Shown in pieces: positions 4,511-19,518 of a stretch of DNA of 38,153 nt; the first letter of the stretch is position 1, and every line of letters begins with the position of its first letter. Source of the DNA: Nitrospirota bacterium (GTDB taxonomy: Bacteria; Nitrospirota; Thermodesulfovibrionia; Thermodesulfovibrionales; Dissulfurispiraceae); contig SCQE01000045.1 of the NCBI GenBank assembly GCA_004321915.1, forward strand, positions 1 through 38,153. The letters are read 5' to 3'. The translations under genes and the position numbers were made by a program. The notes under the pieces were generated by a model. That model was not told the origin of the DNA. It did no database searches and was given only the letters and a program-made list of their open reading frames with translations.

Positions 4511-5722
4511 TTATTTCCAGTTGCTTATCAGGTGCTCCTTGTTCGCTTCAAACTCCAGACATAGCTTTTCTATTTCCGCCTCCGCCCCTTCCTGCTCCAT
4601 ATCCGCCACCTCCATAACAAACGATGCGGTTTTAGCAAGGTAAAGAGGGATCAGGGATTTTATGAGATGCTGGGGAGGGAGCTTTTTCTTATGGTAAGCT
4701 ATGGCGTAATCGTATATGATCTTTGTCCAGAGCTTCAGGGGGAACCTGAATTCTTCGTCGGATACGGCTCCGAGGGTCTTAACCTCGCCAAAGTCACCGG
4801 CGCCTATGACTTCCAGCCATATCTTGTCCAAATTGTCAAGGCTGTCCCTGAATATACCCAGCATCCTTCCCACGTTTACCTTCACGTGTTCAAGCCCCAC
4901 ATGATACCTGAACCCGAATGTGGGAACATCTATAGAGCCTTTGACCTCCTTCCATTTGCCTGAATGTTTCTCAGTCAGGTCGAATAGAGAGCTGATGACT
5001 TGGACAAGCATTTCGCTCAGGTCAGAACTAGGGTCCTTGGGATCATGTATCTTCGCGCCTAGGAAGGCCTGGCATACCCTGAAATCGTTTGCTATAGCCT
5101 CAGTCGTCATCCATATATCTATCCCGAATCTGGCCACGTCTGTTCCCCAGACATCCTGTTTCAGGTAGAACTCTGCCATATTCCCGGAAAACCCGAACTC
5201 CCCGCCTATAGGCTGCCTTATCCTCTTTCCGTAAAAAGCCCTAGTCACGGGGTAGACTATGGAGTTTGTGATGGTCCCGTCAAACTTGTGCCTGTTATAA
5301 AGGGGTGCCACAAAATCTTTCCCTTCCTTGAGTACCGGTGACAGAAGAAGCTCTATCCATTCCGGGGTTATGCTCCTCAGATCAGAATCCACAATGGCGC
5401 ACGCACTCGCACCCATGTCAACAGCCATCTGGAATATAGTCCTTATGGCGCTCCCTTTACCGGGGACACCGTGATACGGAGTGGTTATCCTGTGTGCCAT
5501 GGATAAAGGGTGCTGTATCAAGAGCGCATTGTGATCGATGGTGGTGTTTTTTATTACTTCAGGGGTCCTGTCCTTCGAGCCTCCGTCCGAGTTGACAATG
5601 ACTGCCTTTTTGTCAGGGAAGTATTTCGCGAGTCCTGCATCTACAGCCTTAACAACATGGCCAATTGTCTTGGCGTTGTTATAGCTCGGGATGCCGACCA
5701 CTATATTAGCCGGTTCAACCAT
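4511..5722 (-). CDS. Second GT-A glycosyltransferase of the solute operon (GT2/GT81-like)
   Basis: This 403-residue protein has a GT-A fold start IVVGIPSYNN (7-16), an NSDGGSKDRTPE segment, a VPGKGSA loop, a metal-binding VDSD motif, and the QPIGGEFGFSG and FGIDIWMTTEA segments. The last three line up by eye with GpgS-type GT81 enzymes (PGKG, VDSD, QPLGGE). It differs from the other GT here in its N-terminus and has a longer helical C-terminal part. It overlaps neither neighbour but is only 4 bp after the DUF389 gene, so co-translation is likely. It may be a second GpgS-type enzyme, or it may add another sugar, as in mannosylglucosylglycerate synthesis. Exact donor and acceptor are unknown. 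Confidence 0.78.
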   Translation of the reverse strand: MVEPANIVVGIPSYNNAKTIGHVVKAVDAGLAKYFPDKKAVIVNSDGGSKDRTPEVIKNTTIDHNALLIQHPLSMAHRITTPYHGVPGKGSAIRTIFQMAVDMGASACAIVDSDLRSITPEWIELLLSPVLKEGKDFVAPLYNRHKFDGTITNSIVYPVTRAFYGKRIRQPIGGEFGFSGNMAEFYLKQDVWGTDVARFGIDIWMTTEAIANDFRVCQAFLGAKIHDPKDPSSDLSEMLVQVISSLFDLTEKHSGKWKEVKGSIDVPTFGFRYHVGLEHVKVNVGRMLGIFRDSLDNLDKIWLEVIGAGDFGEVKTLGAVSDEEFRFPLKLWTKIIYDYAIAYHKKKLPPQHLIKSLIPLYLAKTASFVMEVADMEQEGAEAEIEKLCLEFEANKEHLISNWK

Positions 5723-5726
5723 TGTC

Positions 5727-7121
5727 TTATTTAATCCTTTTTTGTTTTTTCTTCTTCTTTACAAGCTCTGTTGTATTTTCTTTGAGAGGCACTGTCTCTA
5801 TCTTTAAGTCCAAAGAAATCTTTAGCTCGTCTGAAAGTATCTGTTTAAGCCATTTAGTTTGTTCATCTGAAAGAGACTTGTCCCTCTTTATTTTCATAAT
5901 AACAGAGACCGCAGAAGTATCATCGTCAATCCCAATATGGAATCCCGATACCTTCGATGGCTCAATTATCCTCTCTACTTTTTCCGAGGCGCTCTTGATT
6001 GTCGTCAAAACAGTCTCTACTGAACTTCTGGGAATTCCTTCGCGTGCTTTTGGCGGAATTACTGGTGCAATTGCCGGCTTTCCAGATTCCTCTTTCAACC
6101 CTCCAGACCTGACTAGGACCTGCTCTACGTTAAGCCGTATATCTTGCCGCAGATATTCGGCAAGGTTTTTTTCTATCCACTTGATATCCGATTCCTTCAG
6201 ATATCTGACAGTGTTGACTTCCGCATTAATCTCCAGAACCTGATCCTTGCCCTTTAAAACAGCAAAGGAGTCGAGACGGGAAGCCTTTTCCCTGTTGAAG
6301 TTAAGCTTTAAAGCGGAACTGACATTGTTCCTCAGCCGGACATCCATGATGGATATTTTCAGTGTATAGAGCAGGGGAATTGAGATTACAAATAGTATTG
6401 TGGCAAAAGCATAGATTCTCCTTTTGAGCCTTGCCTTTTCAATCTCGGTTGTTATCCCCGGTTTAAATCCGTAGGTGTAAAAAACTATACATGTGGCGAG
6501 AATTATGGCTACAAAGTTGGTAAAGAAGAGAAAGAAACCTCCAAAGGCTATAGAGGGGTTCCAGACACCTATGCCGAACCCCGCCACGCTAAGGGGAGGT
6601 ATTACAGCGGTGGCTATGGCCACCCCTGTGACGGTAGTGATATAGTTCTTTCTTGTGCAAATGGCAATTGCACCGGCTGCGCCCGCAAGGACAGCGATAA
6701 TCAGGTCATAAAGATTTGGCTTCGTTCTTGCAGTAATCTCTCCGGTAACCTCCTGTAAAGGGGTCAAATAGGTGAAAAGGGCGGAAATCAGGATCGTAAG
6801 CCCTACGCTGTAAGCAACCTTTTTTAACGCCTTTCTGCCGATGGTTGTATCGCCGGTTATAAACGCAAAACCGCTGCTGAGAATAGGCCCCATAAGAGGA
6901 GATATGAGCATGGCCCCGATTATAATTGCAACACTATTGGTTATAAGCCCCAGCAATGCTATTAGGTTAGCAATGGTGAGCATAAGGAAGTAGCCGGCTG
7001 AAATGTCAACTGCAAGGTAGACGTCCTTGATGACCGCCTTATGGTTTACAAGAGAGGCGCTATCCTCAAGCCATTGTCGCAACGTTAATTTTAATCTTCC
7101 TGCCAAATGATCTCCGTTCAT
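5727..7121 (-). CDS. DUF389 family membrane protein
   Basis: This 464-residue protein matches the DUF389 (TIGR00341) family, which has no established function. The N-terminal 60 residues are soluble. Then a hydrophobic core from about 42 to 255 holds six or so helices, with the family's Gly/Pro-rich LISPLMGPILSSG segment and a GVAIATAVIPPLSVAGFG segment. The C-terminal 200 residues are soluble and alpha/beta-like, ending in a Lys run (KKKKKQKRIK). GGAGG stands before the ATG, and the gene starts 3 bp after the glycerate kinase stop. It is not usually part of solute pathways, so its place in this operon is a hint to its role, perhaps transport or volume sensing. Confidence 0.85.
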   Translation of the reverse strand: MNGDHLAGRLKLTLRQWLEDSASLVNHKAVIKDVYLAVDISAGYFLMLTIANLIALLGLITNSVAIIIGAMLISPLMGPILSSGFAFITGDTTIGRKALKKVAYSVGLTILISALFTYLTPLQEVTGEITARTKPNLYDLIIAVLAGAAGAIAICTRKNYITTVTGVAIATAVIPPLSVAGFGIGVWNPSIAFGGFFLFFTNFVAIILATCIVFYTYGFKPGITTEIEKARLKRRIYAFATILFVISIPLLYTLKISIMDVRLRNNVSSALKLNFNREKASRLDSFAVLKGKDQVLEINAEVNTVRYLKESDIKWIEKNLAEYLRQDIRLNVEQVLVRSGGLKEESGKPAIAPVIPPKAREGIPRSSVETVLTTIKSASEKVERIIEPSKVSGFHIGIDDDTSAVSVIMKIKRDKSLSDEQTKWLKQILSDELKISLDLKIETVPLKENTTELVKKKKKQKRIK

Positions 7122-13510: not shown

Positions 13511-14311
13511 ATGTCTAACCGCCTGAAAAAATCAGTTTTATACGCTTGCCTCCTATTTATGACGATAGCTTCAGTCCATGCCGCCGACATCGGTTATCAA
13601 GGCACCCATATCCTGACCCACGGCGCGCTTGAGTCTCTGGCAAAGGCATTCGAGAGAAAATACGGCAAGCAGGTATTTGTGAAGGGCGGCGGATGCGCGG
13701 ACGGGATTGCGGTTGTGGTAAAGGGACAGCATGAAATGGGCGGCTTATGCTGCCCTCTGACTGAAGAGAAAGCGCGGAAATTTAATCTGATTCAGTATAA
13801 AGTCGCCGTTGATATAAAAGCGGTCATGCTGCATCCCAAAAACCGGTTGAGCAACCTTTCCCTGAAACAGGTTTCCGATATCCATAACGGCAGGCTTACG
13901 AACTGGAAGCAGGTCGGTGGTCCGGACAAGCCGATCGCCTTGGTTTTCAGGGATCACTGCCGCGATATGGCGGAACCTGTGCGGGAAGCGCTGGGAATAA
14001 AAGGCCCTGTCGCAAAAAAAGCGATTATTGTGAAAACAGATAAAGAGGTTGTCGAATACGTGGAGAAGTTTCCGGGCGCGATAGGCATCGCCCCGAGGGT
14101 ATTTGCGCAAGAGGCCAAGGTGAAGATAATAAGCGTCGATAAGATCATGCCGACCCCCGAGAACACTGAAAAAGGCCTGTATCCGCTGACAGGCGATTTG
14201 TATGTCATCACAAAAAGCGGGCCTTCGGGCTTGACGAAGACCTTCATTGAGTTTGTGCTGGACAAGGAAGGCCAAGCGATTATCAGGAAAAATTTTGCAG
14301 GGGCAAAATGA
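13511..14311 (+). CDS. PstS-like periplasmic substrate-binding protein
   Basis: This 266-residue protein has a signal peptide (about 7-24, cleavage near VHA-AD) and the PBP-like fold of phosphate/molybdate-type binding proteins. The order is a GTHILTHGAL first loop, a KGGGCADGI loop (about 56-64), a GGLCCPLT loop (about 77-84), an LSLKQVSDIHNGRLTNWKQVGG segment typical of PstS relatives, and an FRDHCRDM loop. Cysteines occupy positions near the expected ligand loops, which is unusual. The stop overlaps the kinase start by ATGA. It is therefore more likely the sensor input of that two-component system than an ABC importer component; no permease genes are near. Ligand unknown. Confidence 0.85.
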   Translation: MSNRLKKSVLYACLLFMTIASVHAADIGYQGTHILTHGALESLAKAFERKYGKQVFVKGGGCADGIAVVVKGQHEMGGLCCPLTEEKARKFNLIQYKVAVDIKAVMLHPKNRLSNLSLKQVSDIHNGRLTNWKQVGGPDKPIALVFRDHCRDMAEPVREALGIKGPVAKKAIIVKTDKEVVEYVEKFPGAIGIAPRVFAQEAKVKIISVDKIMPTPENTEKGLYPLTGDLYVITKSGPSGLTKTFIEFVLDKEGQAIIRKNFAGAK

Positions 14312-15789
14312 AGGGTTTATGGAATAGGCTTTCTATCAGATATAAGATAGTTTCGATTATTGTCCTGCCAATTCTGCTTATAACGATTACGACCCTTCCT
14401 GTTGTTTCTTATCTTATAAAGGACGCGCTTTTCAGGCGGCAGCAAGACCACCTTGAAAGTGTAAAAAACCTCGTCATAAAACTCTTTGAGGACTACCAGA
14501 GCAAGGTCACGAATTACACAAGGCTTTTCAGCAATGACAGGGAGATAAAGGACAGCCTGTTTTATCACACCTAACTGTCGGGTGAGCGGGAACATCCGCT
14601 GAGGGCGGTCAAGCGCTTGTATAAATCGTTTGATGTCAGTTCGATAGAGATAGGCGATGCGCGCGGCCGGGTCGTTGCAGTCGCCGAGAGCTCTGCTGTG
14701 TATGACGATGACAGGTCCGGAGACCCGCTGATTAAAAGCGCCCTCCAAGGCAAAGTGACATCAGGTTTTGTGCTTACCGAAAAAGGCTTTGTCATAAAGG
14801 CCGCAGCGCCTGTTTTGTATAACGAAAACCAGATAATCGGGACGATCACCTCCGGCATACTGCTTGATCAAGGTTTGCTGGCAAAGATCAGGCAGTTGAG
14901 CAACACCGACCTTGTTATTACCGATACTGCAGACCGGGTCGTATCGTCCACGCTGAAGCAAAACGACAGCTCGCTTCTGCAGGCAAATGACCATGCCCGA
15001 TTTGCTTCAGGCAAGCTCCTGATAAAGTTTCCTTTGCTTGATAAAGAAACCGGCGCTGTCGGCAACATCCTTATTGTTCAGGAAGACAAGCTGCCCGGGA
15101 TTATTACCAAGACATGTATGACTTTGCTGCTTCTTCTGCTCTCTATTTTTTCGGCATCTCTTTTTGTGCTTTTTTTAGCGCTCAAAAAATTGATGCAGCC
15201 TGTCGTAACCCTTCGTGAAGGAGCGGAGCGCATCGGGACCGGCGATTTTATGCACAGGATCGAGGTGACCTCAAAGGACGAGATAGGTGAACTTTCCGAA
15301 GGCTTCAATAGAATGGCTGCGAACCTTGAAAAATTGCACAGCATGGAGGAAAAGCTTTTCCAGTCCGAGCGGCTTGCGGCGGTCGGTAAATTTGCGGCAG
15401 GCATTGCGCATGAGATAAATAATCCCATAGGCAATGTCATCGGCATTGCCAAGCTTATGCTGAAAAATACGAAGGACAAGGCCGCGCGGGACGACTTGGA
15501 ATCCATCATCAGGGATTCCGGCAGGTGCGCAAACATAATCAAGGATCTGCTTGTATATTCGCGCCAGTCTCCGCCGTTGAAAGAAAAAACGTCCATCGCT
15601 GTTCTGATCGACGATGCCGTCAAGGCTGTAAAAAAACTTTCCGACGCAAAAGGGATAGAGGTCAGTTACGGCATAGTCCAGAACCACGGCGGAGAGATAA
15701 TCGTGCAGAGCAGGAAAGGACAGGGAAGCACTTTCAGCGTCAGGCTTCCTGTGGGGGAAGGAATAAGACATGCAGAGACTCAGGATTAG
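14308..15789 (+). pseudogene. Broken sensor histidine kinase (Cache-HAMP-HisKA, ATPase core lost)
   Basis: One continuous frame encodes TM1 (about 14-34), a periplasmic Cache-like domain, TM2 (about 270-292), HAMP, and HisKA with the phospho-acceptor GIAHEINNPIGN. Two lesions are visible. A TAA at 14572-14574 interrupts the sensor domain; coding resumes in the same frame at once (LSGEREHP), so a GAA-to-TAA change is likely. Near 15661 the frame jumps from the HisKA linker (DAKGIEV) directly to SYGIVQNHGGEI, the G2-side end of the ATPase. The N, F and G1 boxes, about 75 residues, are missing. It starts by ATGA overlap with the binding protein. Autophosphorylation should be impossible even with stop read-through. 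Confidence 0.85.
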
Positions 15790-15799
15790 AAATAAATAA
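15770..15799 (+). pseudogene. Relic of a response-regulator start
   Basis: An ATG at 15770, with AAGGAA seven bases upstream, overlaps the end of the kinase frame. It opens MQRLRI before running into a stop at 15797-15799. The intact regulator downstream begins MDRRLRILAIDD, so this looks like the first codons of the original, kinase-overlapping regulator, cut off after the sixth codon. It is only nine codons long; the reading rests on the similarity and the position. Confidence 0.4.
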
Positions 15800-15864
15800 G
15801 TTTTTTCAGTAAAATGAAATATATAATACAGTGTTAATCGAAAGACTTTTAACGGAGGCGTATT

Positions 15865-16122
15865 ATGCAAACCAAAACAATGTATGAGGAGAAAATATTA
15901 AGAGAATTGAGGGATCTTCCTGAAGTTGTGCAGGAAAAATTATCGAATATAATGCATATTCTGACAAAAGAGTTCATGTTTTTTGAGGGAGATGAGAAAC
16001 GCGTAACTGATGAATTCCTTTCAGTTTGCGGGACGTGGGAAGACAATAAAAGCGCAGAGGAACAAATACAGACTATTTATTCAAGCAGACGATCTGTTTC
16101 AAGAACGGAGAAGGTATTTTGA
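15865..16122 (+). CDS. VapB-type antitoxin
   Basis: The product has 85 residues: a helical N-terminal half with an ELRDLPEVVQEKL segment, as in many small antitoxins, and an acidic and Ser/Arg-rich C-terminal tail that would wrap the toxin. No clear AbrB or RHH fold can be named. GGAGG lies eight bases before the ATG. A TATAAT at 15822-15827 could be the -10 box, with a weak -35. The stop overlaps the toxin start (TTGA), the usual TA arrangement. The pair is more AT-rich than the flanking two-component genes, as expected for an inserted module. Confidence 0.75.
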   Translation: MQTKTMYEEKILRELRDLPEVVQEKLSNIMHILTKEFMFFEGDEKRVTDEFLSVCGTWEDNKSAEEQIQTIYSSRRSVSRTEKVF

Positions 16123-16526
16123 AATACCTGCTGGACACAAACACCTGTGTTTATCTGCTTAACGGCAATCCTGTATTAAAGAAAAAAGCAAAGAAAGTAG
16201 GTGTTTATTCACTCGCCCTTGCCAACTGTGTCCTTGCAGAACTATATTTTGGCGCATACAATTCCACCAAAGTTCAGGCAAATCTGAAAAGGATAGAGCT
16301 TTTCAAACAGAATCTGACAATTTTCTCCGACAGTGAAGATTCAGCCGCCTTGTTCGGCAGGATAAAGACTTCCTTGAGATCAAAAGGAAGGATTATTGAA
16401 GATTTTGATATCCTCATTGCCTCAATTGCAATTGTCAATAGCTGCGTTCTCGTCACAAATAATACCGAGCATTTTCAACGCATAGAAGGGTTAAAGATAG
16501 AAAACTGGCTGTCCGGCAAAAAATAA
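16119..16526 (+). CDS. VapC-type PIN-domain toxin
   Basis: This 135-residue PIN-domain ribonuclease starts at a TTG overlapping the antitoxin stop. Visible catalytic acids are D6 in LLDTNTCVYL, the Glu in VLAELYFGAY (about 41-50), and the Asp in IEDFDILIAS (about 93-102). The TNNTEHFQRI motif (about 114-123) is standard for VapC. Length is typical. VapC toxins cut tRNA or rRNA when freed from the antitoxin. The module sits between the broken kinase and the intact regulator, so its insertion is probably linked to the damage there. Confidence 0.9.
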   Translation: MKYLLDTNTCVYLLNGNPVLKKKAKKVGVYSLALANCVLAELYFGAYNSTKVQANLKRIELFKQNLTIFSDSEDSAALFGRIKTSLRSKGRIIEDFDILIASIAIVNSCVLVTNNTEHFQRIEGLKIENWLSGKK

Positions 16527-16745
16527 ATAAGCCCGGATTTAAATAAGCAGATACATGTCGCGTATATTTCACCCGCCTTGAAAACGGCGGGCTGTGCGAT
16601 CCATACGGGCTCGCTGAACAGCATTATTTTGGCGATGGCCAGATTTTCCGAGCGCAGCCGAAAAATCGTTGCCAAAGATCCGACCGCCCCGACGAAGGTC
16701 ATGAGTATTTTGATAGAGGTGTCGTTAGGAGAAGATGATGGATAG
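16527..16745 (+). pseudogene. Orphan coding tail upstream of the second regulator
   Basis: From the VapC stop to a TAG at 16743-16745 the same frame stays open for 72 codons with no ATG at its beginning. The part from about 16548 has codon use like the neighbouring genes and reads as a plausible protein end (TAGCAIHTGSLN ... VMSILIEVSLGEDDG). Its stop overlaps the ATGATG of the next regulator, as in coupled genes. It is best read as the 3' remnant of a gene once coupled to that regulator. I cannot name the family. Confidence 0.5.
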
Positions 16746-18108
16746 ACGGCTTAGAATACTGGCTATAGACGACGAAGATACGGTGTTGCGCATAATCAGG
16801 CGGTCGCTTGAACCTGAAGATTGCTCTGTCGAGACCTTCAGCAAGGCCTCTGATGCGATAACCCGGCTAAAAAACGGCGACCCTGTGGACATTGTCATAA
16901 CAGACCTCATGCTGCCGGACGCTGACGGCTTCAAAATAATTGAAGAGGCCCGCGCTATTGACGGGAACATGCCGGTAATATTGATTACGGCGTATTCGTC
17001 CATCGAGACGGCGGTAAAGGCCATCAAGTCAGGGGCGTATGATTTTATTCCCAAGCCGTTCGACCCTGAACACATAGCTATCGTAGTTAAAAGGGCCGCG
17101 GAAACAAGAAAACTAAAGCTCGAAAATATAGGCTTGAAAAGGCAGTTGGAGTTCATCCCCGGTTCCGGTGGAATAATCGGCTCCAGCACTGCCATGAGTC
17201 AGGTGTTCGGCATGATAGAAAAGGTAAAAGATACGGACGGCACGGTCCTTTTGACAGGTGAGAGCGGGGTAGGGAAAGAGCTTGTCGCCCGGGCGATCCA
17301 TTACGGCAGCAAGAGGACGGATAAGCCCTTCATCGCGATCAATTGCGGAGCATTGCCCGACGAACTCCTCGAATCCGAACTGTTCGGTTATGAAAAAGGG
17401 GCGTTTACAGGAGCGGTCAATAAAAAAACAGGCCTGTTTGAAGCGGCGAATGAAGGCACGATATTCCTCGATGAGGTGAGCAGCATAAGCCCGATGATGC
17501 AGGTCAAGCTCCTCAGGTTCCTGCAAGAGAGGACTTTTATGAGGCTCGGCGGCAATGAGACGATCAGTGTTGACGCTCGGGTTATTGCCGCAACCAATGA
17601 ATATCTCAGAGAGGCCGTGGACAAAGGCGCGTTCAGAAAAGATCTTTATTACCGGTTGAATGTCCTGCCGATAGATATCCCGCCGCTGCGTGAAAGAAGC
17701 GAGGACATCCCGCTTCTGGTCCGGCACTTCACCAAAAAATTTTCCCTAAGGATGAACAAGCCGGTCGTCGGCGTAGACCCGGTCGCGGAGGACTTGCTCA
17801 AAGGATACAGGTGGGAAGGCAATGTGAGGGAACTCGAAAATGTCATAGAGAGGGCGGTTACGATAACGGATAATGGCGCCATCGGCATGGACGACCTGTC
17901 TGATGAGATTAAAACCGTTAACGCACCATCCGACTTGGAAGCAACAGCGCCCCCTGCAACCCTGACTCTTTCCGACCTTGAACGCCTTCATATCGCGAAT
18001 GTCTTAAAGTCGGTCAACGGCAATAAGAGCAAGGCTGCGAGAATGCGCGGCATTGATTACAGCACGCTTCGCAGGAAGCTCAATTCAATGGATATCCCCA
18101 TAGAGTAA
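16738..18108 (+). CDS. Sigma-54-dependent response regulator (second copy)
   Basis: The protein has 456 residues. The receiver domain (about 3-120) carries D11/D12 and phospho-acceptor D56. The AAA+ domain has Walker A GESGVGKE (174-181), GAFTGA (221-226) and Walker B TIFLDE (241-246). The Fis-type HTH is at the end (GNKSKAARMRGIDYSTLRRKL). Two ATGs stand side by side; AGGAG at 16727-16731 is better spaced (six bases) for the second, 16738, than for 16735. All key residues are present, so the activator is intact although the kinase upstream is broken. A -24/-12 promoter 90 bp downstream of its stop is the obvious target. Confidence 0.93.
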   Translation: MDRRLRILAIDDEDTVLRIIRRSLEPEDCSVETFSKASDAITRLKNGDPVDIVITDLMLPDADGFKIIEEARAIDGNMPVILITAYSSIETAVKAIKSGAYDFIPKPFDPEHIAIVVKRAAETRKLKLENIGLKRQLEFIPGSGGIIGSSTAMSQVFGMIEKVKDTDGTVLLTGESGVGKELVARAIHYGSKRTDKPFIAINCGALPDELLESELFGYEKGAFTGAVNKKTGLFEAANEGTIFLDEVSSISPMMQVKLLRFLQERTFMRLGGNETISVDARVIAATNEYLREAVDKGAFRKDLYYRLNVLPIDIPPLRERSEDIPLLVRHFTKKFSLRMNKPVVGVDPVAEDLLKGYRWEGNVRELENVIERAVTITDNGAIGMDDLSDEIKTVNAPSDLEATAPPATLTLSDLERLHIANVLKSVNGNKSKAARMRGIDYSTLRRKLNSMDIPIE

Positions 18109-18198
18109 AATGCGCTGATTAGTGTATTTTGCCTTAGCATTTTGCGCTTCCTGATTTTTCCATTGCCGCTTTATGCTTGTCTGTTCCCGGTTTATCGA

Positions 18199-18214
18199 TG
18201 GCATGATATGTGCA
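18199..18214 (+). promoter_or_regulatory. Sigma-54 (-24/-12) promoter of the beta-propeller gene
   Basis: The sequence TGGCAT-GATAT-GTGCA matches the sigma-54 consensus TGGCAC-N5-TTGCA at 14 of 16 positions counting free spacer. The invariant GG (18200-18201) and GC (18212-18213) have exact spacing. Start of transcription is expected near 18225, giving a leader of about 28 nt with AGGAGG before the ATG. It lies directly behind a sigma-54 activator gene. Confidence 0.8.
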
Positions 18215-18252
18215 ATCTCCGAAGGTAAATATAAAACCACAGGAGGTAATGC

Positions 18253-19518
18253 ATGAAGAAGCTTTTAAAGTATTGTCTTATCGCTTTAGTTGTCATCGGC
18301 ATGAGTACCGCTGTTTATGCCGCAGTCGCAAAATGGATTTTCGTGCCCAATGCCGCATCAAAGACGCTTTCCTTTGTCGACCCTCAAAAAGATATGGTCA
18401 TCGGCCACTGCGAAACCGGGCCGACCGGATGGCTGGCCTGTCTTACGCCTGACCTGAAGAAGATCTATGTCGGCGAAAACGGCGGTGACTCGGTAACTGT
18501 AATTGATGCCATTACACACAAAACCCTGAAGCACATCAAGACCGGCAAGAATGTCAAACATCCGCTCGTTACACCCGACGGCAAATATGTGCTCATCAAT
18601 CATACCGGTGAGGTTAAGGCGGTACTCTTTGACGCCAAGACGGACAAGGAACTGAAGACCTTTGCTGTTGACCACCAGAATAAGGCACAGAAAGGCCCGT
18701 TGATGATGCACTCGGCCTTTACATGGGACAGCAAATACGCCTTTGTCCAAAACTATGCGGACAAGAAATCATACGTCTTGAAAATCCCGTCCCTTGAAGT
18801 CGCCGCAACGATTGACGGGGACAGCCCCGCGCATTATTTTATCCCCACGCCTGATAACAAGCAGGTCTGGATAGTGTATGAAGGCAACGATGCGGCAAAA
18901 ATCAAGCCGTCTGTTTCGATTATGGATATGGCGACATTCAAGGAAGTAAAAAAAATCGAAATACCGACGGCCGAAGGAGAGGCCATAGAGGGGCATCACG
19001 GCATATTCACACTTGACGGGAAATATTTTTATTACTGCAATCGCGGCCCCGGCCCGAAGTTCGGCGGCAGCACGGTGGCAGTTATAGATGTGGCTCAGCA
19101 GAAGGTTGTCAGGACGATCAAGGCTGCAAACGGTGTCGGACACCCATATCTCACGCCTGACGGCAACTATGTCGTGCTTACGCCTTACGGCAACTATGTC
19201 GTGCTTACGCCTTACGGCAACTATGTCGTGCTTACGCCTTACGGTTCAAATATTATCACGATTGTTGACGCCAAGACAGGGCTTAAGCTTAAGGACCTGC
19301 CTGTCGGCAACGGCAACCATGTAGGCCATATAGTCTTCAGCGCGGACAGCAAAAAAGCTTATGCAACCAATGCTTCCGACGGCGCGCTGTATGTCATAGA
19401 CATGCAGAAACGGGAAGTGGTAAAAGGAATTCCGACTGGCGACAAGGCTGCACAGGTAATCAATACTTATACAAATCTTTTTGAAGTGCCGGGAGTATAT
19501 AAATTGCATAGTCACTAA
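18253..19518 (+). CDS. Secreted YVTN-type beta-propeller protein
   Basis: This 421-residue protein has a signal peptide (about 5-23, cleavage near VYA-AV) followed by about seven YVTN/cytochrome d1-like blades. Blade marks recur: WIFVPNAASKTLSFVD, KKIYVGENGGDSVTVID, KYVLINHT, STVAVIDVAQQKVVRTI, YATNASDGALYVID. No heme-binding CxxCH is present. AGGAGG precedes the ATG. A 27-bp triplication inserts 18 residues into one blade (about 303-330). The gene is probably the sigma-54-driven output of the adjacent sensory genes and ends at a strong terminator. Such propellers often bind metals or proteins in the periplasm; function here is unknown. Confidence 0.87.
   Translation: MKKLLKYCLIALVVIGMSTAVYAAVAKWIFVPNAASKTLSFVDPQKDMVIGHCETGPTGWLACLTPDLKKIYVGENGGDSVTVIDAITHKTLKHIKTGKNVKHPLVTPDGKYVLINHTGEVKAVLFDAKTDKELKTFAVDHQNKAQKGPLMMHSAFTWDSKYAFVQNYADKKSYVLKIPSLEVAATIDGDSPAHYFIPTPDNKQVWIVYEGNDAAKIKPSVSIMDMATFKEVKKIEIPTAEGEAIEGHHGIFTLDGKYFYYCNRGPGPKFGGSTVAVIDVAQQKVVRTIKAANGVGHPYLTPDGNYVVLTPYGNYVVLTPYGNYVVLTPYGSNIITIVDAKTGLKLKDLPVGNGNHVGHIVFSADSKKAYATNASDGALYVIDMQKREVVKGIPTGDKAAQVINTYTNLFEVPGVYKLHSH
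19161..19241 (+). repeat. 27-bp tandem repeat, three perfect copies
   Basis: Three identical 27-bp units (19161-19187, 19188-19214, 19215-19241) lie in frame in the beta-propeller gene, each adding nine residues of the pattern GNYVVLTPY. A single copy would fit the PDG-strand-turn of a normal blade. The perfect identity points to recent expansion by replication slippage, or to an assembly error. Confidence 0.95.

Follow-up and report, generated by a model that had tools for sequence, protein, structure and literature searches.

A histidine kinase gene broken by two lesions in a module with an intact binding protein and an intact sigma-54-type regulator in a Nitrospirota genome

The window is the whole stretch of 38,153 nucleotides of contig SCQE01000045.1 (assembly GCA_004321915.1, Nitrospirota bacterium) that was analysed. 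It carries a binding protein gene, the remains of a histidine kinase gene, an insertion, a response regulator gene, and a beta-propeller gene, in this order and reading in the same direction. The features are as follows, with positions in the window and the evidence for each.

13511-14311, + strand, PstS-like periplasmic binding protein (PBP_like_2), opening the module; PF12849 at 87 bits, seven relatives aligned
14308-14574, + strand, N-terminal 88 codons of the kinase up to an in-frame TAA at 14572-14574; ORF list and the relatives' residue at this column
14575-15789, + strand, remainder of the kinase: sensor and TM2, HAMP, and HisKA (DHp, with AHEINNP), followed directly by the final segment of the ATPase domain; ORFs, Pfam and alignment
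14617, + strand, mechanical internal start (TTG) within the kinase remainder
15660-15661, + strand, junction where 90 codons (ATP-binding core) are deleted in frame; alignment, and HATPase_c in relative L019 and not in the window
15764-16727, no strand, insertion absent from all ten relative loci with both genes; limits of DNA similarity
15865-16122, + strand, gene upstream of the VapC-type toxin for an 85-aa partner, a candidate antitoxin; same pair in genomes G126 and G133
16119-16526, + strand, PIN-domain VapC-type toxin; PF01850 above cut-off
16532-16693, + strand, degenerate 5' end of a restriction-helicase (ResIII) subunit gene, interrupted by an in-frame stop; DNA matches in G089 and G026
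16728-16745, + strand, final kinase codons (GEDDG and stop), overlapping the regulator start; match to the relatives' kinase ends
16735-18108, + strand, NtrC-type sigma-54-dependent response regulator with receiver, AAA+ and HTH_8; PF00072, PF00158, PF02954 and alignment
18125-18146, + strand, two ATTTTGC repeat copies just past the regulator stop, putative regulator binding site; conservation
18199-18214, + strand, sigma-54-like promoter TGGCATGATATGTGCA (GG-N10-GC); present in all six aligned loci
18253-19518, + strand, YVTN-type beta-propeller protein, possible regulator target; Pfam and NCBIfam models, same position in relatives

The binding protein was described as intact in the first-pass annotation and it is, because its frame is open throughout and the protein matches its family. 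It also matches PstS-type models, and the 24 PDB matches listed are phosphate-binding or other solute-binding proteins, none of them named AioX. Its cysteines in GGGCADG, CCPL, and RDHC are retained in all eight aligned sequences, and to our knowledge such cysteines are not expected in a PstS-like protein. A metal or a metalloid is a possible ligand.

The kinase gene is destroyed by two separate lesions. The first is the TAA, which had been noticed from the letters and is really there in the contig, and beyond which the frame is stop-free up to 15787-15789. It may be a point mutation, which the first-pass annotation had called likely, or possibly a base error. Comparison with close relatives had been proposed as a check, and when the window frame was read through the TAA and aligned with eight relatives (L009 to L015 and L019, L015 stopping at a contig edge) all eight had Glu at this column; in a codon alignment with seven relatives every codon at this column codes for Glu. 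The second lesion is the absence, in frame, of 90 aligned codons at the junction, where KGIE runs straight into VSYGIVQNHGG. The gap consists of runs of 47 and 43 columns with a 14-column stretch between them that, in the part displayed, holds codons only from L070. Between KGIE and VSYGIVQNHGG the seven full-length relatives have DPLQ, LNA, a D-x-G-x-G region, PFFTTK, and EGTGLGLA, a block which we take to comprise the N box, G1, F, and G2. The earlier description, that the HisKA linker is fused to the end of the ATPase domain with the N, F, and G1 boxes gone, was thus correct, and the G2 region is gone too. A Pfam search of 14575-15786 gave HAMP, HisKA, and a CHASE4/Cache-like sensor and no match to HATPase_c, whereas the L019 kinase gave HAMP, HisKA, and Cache/CHASE4-type matches and, in addition, HATPase_c at 91 bits. 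The HisKA match of the window kinase (PF00512) scored 48.5 bits, its AHEINNP aligns with the relatives, and the DHp retains the phospho-acceptor His and the E-x-x-N. Of what marks a functional HisKA-type kinase the DHp with its His is therefore present, and HATPase_c and an uninterrupted frame are missing. Since the ATP-binding core is missing, the kinase product should be unable to autophosphorylate, that is, it should be dead.

Two readings in which the kinase is not really broken were weighed against these data. We give little credence to an assembly artefact, in which the genome has an intact kinase and the TAA is a wrong base and the junction a collapse, possibly from a chimera of strains. 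The genome is a 3.6 Mb draft in 145 contigs, which leaves room for such errors, but the two lesions and the insertion described below would all have to be errors and the missing core does not lie elsewhere in the assembly. In a genome search with the L019 core for a relocated catalytic core, the other 83 matches were at most 55% identical (54% for the best-scoring one) and the window's own core remnant was 71% identical over 38 residues; likewise, no close kinase paralogue was found in the genome, the best-scoring other places being 27-35% identical. A collapse is also not favoured by the sequence around the deletion. With 84-base windows around the ends of the missing block, and the relatives' sequence standing in for that of the window's ancestor, no repeat longer than 7 bases was found between the two ends in 7 of 7 relatives, which is no more than in shuffles. 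The other reading, that the TAA is decoded as an amino acid by read-through or recoding, would agree with a frame that is stop-free and conserved beyond the TAA, but it is hardly credible because the 90-codon deletion disables the kinase even when the TAA is read. Moreover, four other places among 84 matches were flagged for a stop, and three of them align stop-free while in the fourth the stop is near the C-terminal end of the match.

The first-pass annotation had the binding protein and the regulator on either side of the kinase. Both are intact as it said, but about 960 bp, 15764-16727, keep the regulator apart from the kinase. In all ten relative loci with both genes (L012, L014, L019, L067, L068, L071, L072, L074, L075, and L076, apparently almost a duplicate of L014) the matches to kinase and regulator are at most 30 bases apart or overlap. 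DNA similarity to the relatives stops at 15737-15763 and returns at 16723-16738, varying by relative. The GEDDG codons and the stop at 16728-16745 match the relatives' kinase ends and therefore the insertion entered the very end of the kinase gene. Alignments on both sides of the insertion were available for six relatives to look for a target-site duplication; in two of the six, L012 (10 bases) and L019 (6 bases), a short stretch is aligned twice, once on each side, and in L009, L010, L011, and L014 none is.

The insertion holds a pair of genes with the layout of a type II toxin-antitoxin system, namely, a PIN toxin and an upstream partner that overlaps it by 4 bases, and the layout is the same in L028 and L029. 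Against three VapC models the toxin scored under all cut-offs, the best being NF047863 at 122 bits. The partner is 55% identical to the L028 partner, and it fell in no known antitoxin family, with no match in Pfam, NCBIfam, or PADLOC; it is a candidate for an unclassified antitoxin. At the DNA level the pair is 69-70% identical to the pairs in G126 and G133, two other genomes in a sample of 149, and those pairs have other surroundings than the window pair. The partner genes kept with the toxin there are L028:1273-1530 and L029:1887-2144, which were scanned against Pfam only. Downstream of the toxin, the stretch 16532-16693 resembles the start of a restriction-helicase subunit gene, presumably hsdR, in G026 and a fragment in G089. 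By blastx against the L030 and L032 proteins only, 26 of 46 residues are identical to L030 and 26 of 56 to L032, and the L032 protein carries ResIII and Helicase_C by Pfam. In L030 (G089:C188), from another genome of the order, a short ORF at 1433-1801 with the same restriction-gene start lies beside a likely ribosomal protein gene, which we take to be that for L17. No further DNA copies of the toxin pair or of the restriction fragment were found in the genome of the window. No terminator was found on the + strand of the region 15600-18300, which covers the gap between toxin and regulator, and the - strand has a single one; shuffles give more. Sigma-70-like sites numbered eight against 3.7 expected, and on the + strand two of them lie before the toxin pair and one before the regulator.

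The response regulator is intact, as had been claimed, with an open frame and a match to its family. In the alignment it retains the receiver Asp, Thr, and Lys, the GAFTGA motif, and a Fis-type HTH, to which we assign their usual roles, and it has the full set of NtrC-type domains. At 282 columns that are invariant in six relatives the window regulator has 22 changes. The same count gave 9 of 269 for L019, 15 of 275 for L070, and 20 of 280 for L071, so that the window is the highest of the seven but is near L071.

Between the regulator and the propeller gene, TGGCAYGATNNGTGCW with GG-N10-GC spacing is common to all six aligned loci, the window included. Sigma-54 promoters follow a consensus with conserved GG and GC elements, and to this consensus the window site has two mismatches, as has its other strand; because the site is nearly palindromic the motif does not fix the strand. 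In the whole window there is one site with at most one mismatch (31201) against 0-5 in shuffles, and this chance rate covers sites with at most one mismatch while the site at 18199 has two. The evidence for the sigma-54-like site is therefore its conservation across the loci and not its score. The leader 3' of the site is shorter in the window, and the genome has one match to a sigma-54 gene. Upstream of the site, the second ATTTTGC copy is present in all six aligned loci and the first, preceding copy is clear in four of them; these repeats are possibly the binding site of the regulator. The propeller gene follows the regulator in L012, L014, L019, L067, L068, and L076. It was not found after the regulator in L071, L072, and L074, which run more than 2 kb beyond the regulator, or in L075, which ends soon after it. 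In L068 (G097) the propeller match at 5064-6165 falls into two segments that lie in different frames and leave about 35 query residues between them without a match, and the G097 propeller gene is possibly damaged.

The distribution of the module was surveyed in 149 genomes of the order to which the window belongs, its own genome included. The kinase was found in 10 of them at E <= 1e-50, its own included, the regulator in 10 at E <= 1e-150, and the binding protein in 14 at E <= 1e-40, two of these (G037 and G049) at 32-35% identity only. In the nine other genomes with the kinase the gene is an open frame of 583-608 aa in eight and is cut by a contig end in the ninth, G081. Contig ends also account for G150, where a kinase tail and the regulator stand at a contig start, and for G159, where a piece of the binding protein stands at a contig end. 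G013 is different: its binding protein gene (L073, G013:C15, 1648-2391) is alone and C-terminally shortened, with about 228 of 266 residues matched and an ORF of 247 aa, and the kinase and the regulator are unmatched although the contig runs on past the binding protein. G022, of the same genus as G013, keeps all three genes of the module. None of the three was found at these thresholds in G001, the only same-genus genome covered. Thirteen loci came from named genomes. Of these L012 to L015 (MAGs labelled Nitrospirae), L019 (labelled Deltaproteobacteria), and L017 are close, L017 being a Nitrospirae contig with a kinase tail only, and the remaining ones are distant. The alignments show that the layout of the module and the promoter-like site are conserved in the relatives. 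The survey brings out a module of this order consisting of a PstS-like binding protein, a kinase, a sigma-54 regulator and, often, a beta-propeller gene. A literature search for such a module in Nitrospirota gave none among the matches listed.

To see how long the kinase has been decaying, home-made codon models (optimiser iterations at most 60-80) were fitted to the kinase and to the regulator. With the first topology the omega of the window branch was 0.092 against a background of 0.111 for the kinase (p = 0.35) and 0.088 against 0.078 for the regulator (p = 0.62). A second topology, which does not place the window as sister to L019, was better by about 19 log units for the kinase and about 18 for the regulator. 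Under it the kinase optimum was near 0.10, with an omega of 0.15 costing 1.5 log units and one of 0.20 costing 4.7, and the regulator optimum was near 0.08-0.10. An omega of 1 was rejected for both genes under both topologies. There was thus purifying selection over most of the window branch. Near the optima the length of this branch is about 2.5-3.6 neutral substitutions per codon, so long that the decay can be dated only in relative terms. An upper omega of about 0.16 corresponds by arithmetic to a freely evolving fraction f of roughly 5-6% of the kinase branch. The low omega means either that the kinase was lost only near the end of a long branch or that the remnant is still selected, and the data do not separate these. 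The count of changes at conserved columns is unremarkable for the window kinase, 13 at 231 columns invariant in the other seven sequences, compared with 6 of 224 in L019, 7 of 225 in L012, 15 of 233 in L070, and 33 of 251 in L071.

A relative-rate test with L019 as sister and L067 and L012 as outgroups gave 57 polarised amino-acid changes in the window against 25 in L019 for the kinase and 44 against 14 for the regulator, with 15 against 18 for the binding protein and 5 against 14 for the propeller. We rejected relaxed selection as a conclusion from this test because third codon positions rise too, the change in omega is not significant, and the polarisation is unsafe, the tree being weakly resolved and the better-fitting topology having the window not sister to L019.

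Given the low omega and the lack of a frameshift, the remaining kinase codons could still be translated and selected. This raises the question whether a shortened protein made by restart after the TAA, e.g., at TTG 14617, works as a kinase-dead HAMP-DHp phosphatase of the regulator. We regard this as unlikely. The HisKA is intact with its His and then the E-x-x-N, the deletion is in frame, the kinase omega is near 0.1, and 1.2 kb after the stop are without a frameshift, all of which would fit such a protein; but a recently broken gene shows a low omega too, the start is merely a mechanical TTG, the restart would lose the N-terminal hydrophobic stretch ahead of the stop, and beyond the junction there is a remainder of the ATPase domain that has no obvious function. 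There is a biochemical precedent, since in excerpts from PMC3510030 the DHp of NtrB and EnvZ is reported to be enough for phosphatase activity, which the catalytic domain raises greatly, and the E-x-x-N motif of the DHp is described in an excerpt from PMC5727384. The window remnant is like those DHp-only proteins in being a DHp without an ATPase core that keeps the His and the E-x-x-N, but they were expressed on purpose whereas the remnant is natural and is known from sequence alone. A natural phosphatase-only sensor, in which the internally restarted HAMP-DHp would dephosphorylate a regulator charged by other donors and would perhaps still listen to the binding protein through the sensor remnant, is in our opinion improbable. 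If it did exist, a kinase would have been turned through natural mutation into a dedicated, signal-gated off-switch.

The most likely explanation, in which we have good confidence, is that the locus is a conserved three-component sensing module in which the kinase gene has turned into a pseudogene, probably not long ago, while the regulator and its likely target promoter have been kept. The stop after 88 codons would end normal translation of the kinase and the 90-codon deletion would remove the ATP-binding core, leaving a product without autophosphorylation. The toxin-antitoxin pair and the restriction-gene fragment at the junction would have uncoupled the kinase and regulator genes, and the regulator would be transcribed from the insertion or through read-through. 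It may still act on the propeller gene, no longer via the kinase from the binding protein. With the kinase dead, the regulator is most likely charged by other donors or is at basal activity; an alternative phosphodonor, which could be a non-cognate kinase or a small molecule, is as a step by itself tentative. The first-pass annotation had listed three fates for the regulator, namely, phosphorylation by another kinase, work in the unphosphorylated state, and being on the way to loss. This list was incomplete since a DHp phosphatase is possible if the remnant is translated from inside, and for loss there is no sign yet because the regulator omega, about 0.08-0.09, is like that of the relatives and the likely target promoter is conserved.

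The module can be compared with known systems. In AioX-AioS-AioR, ArxXSR, and ArrXSR the genes for a binding protein, a histidine kinase, and a response regulator lie together with an RpoN-type promoter and, for AioXSR, the periplasmic binding protein is thought to signal to the kinase, according to excerpts from PMC5908839. In the window and its relatives the genes are arranged likewise, with the binding protein first, then the kinase and the regulator, close to an RpoN promoter (by consensus only). They differ in that the possible target in the window is a beta-propeller gene and not a molybdoenzyme, the window kinase is broken, and the window binding protein matches PBP_like_2/PstS models whereas the AioX/ArxX/ArrX subfamily is PhnD-like. 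Because the binding protein matches PstS-type proteins, the resemblance to AioXSR is best regarded as one of layout rather than of membership. For a regulator without its kinase there is a precedent in Borrelia burgdorferi, where, in an excerpt from PMC7649798, HK2 is dispensable for Rrp2 activation and can act as a phosphatase. The sigma-54 activator Rrp2 can thus become active in the absence of its cognate kinase, as is proposed for the window regulator, but the HK2 gene is functional and the window kinase gene is broken.

Orphan response regulators can be left behind when their kinases are lost, and the papers listed on orphan regulators and kinase loss give general cases. The window fits this in having kept the regulator and lost the kinase; it differs in that the ruined kinase gene has not yet gone and is parted from the regulator gene by an insertion. 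As a process this is ordinary gene decay that leaves an orphan regulator. What makes the locus useful is that it is a clear snapshot of an orphan response regulator arising, with the kinase broken and the regulator, the likely promoter, and the binding protein intact, and G013, from which kinase and regulator are gone, would be a later stage. In addition, the conserved promoter-like site makes the target of the module directly testable.

At the other end of the window, positions 26-121 match the group II intron family RF00029 of Rfam with 43.2 bits, the gathering score being 40, and this match overlaps the start of the first mechanical ORF (72-1439), which is itself another NtrC-type regulator match.
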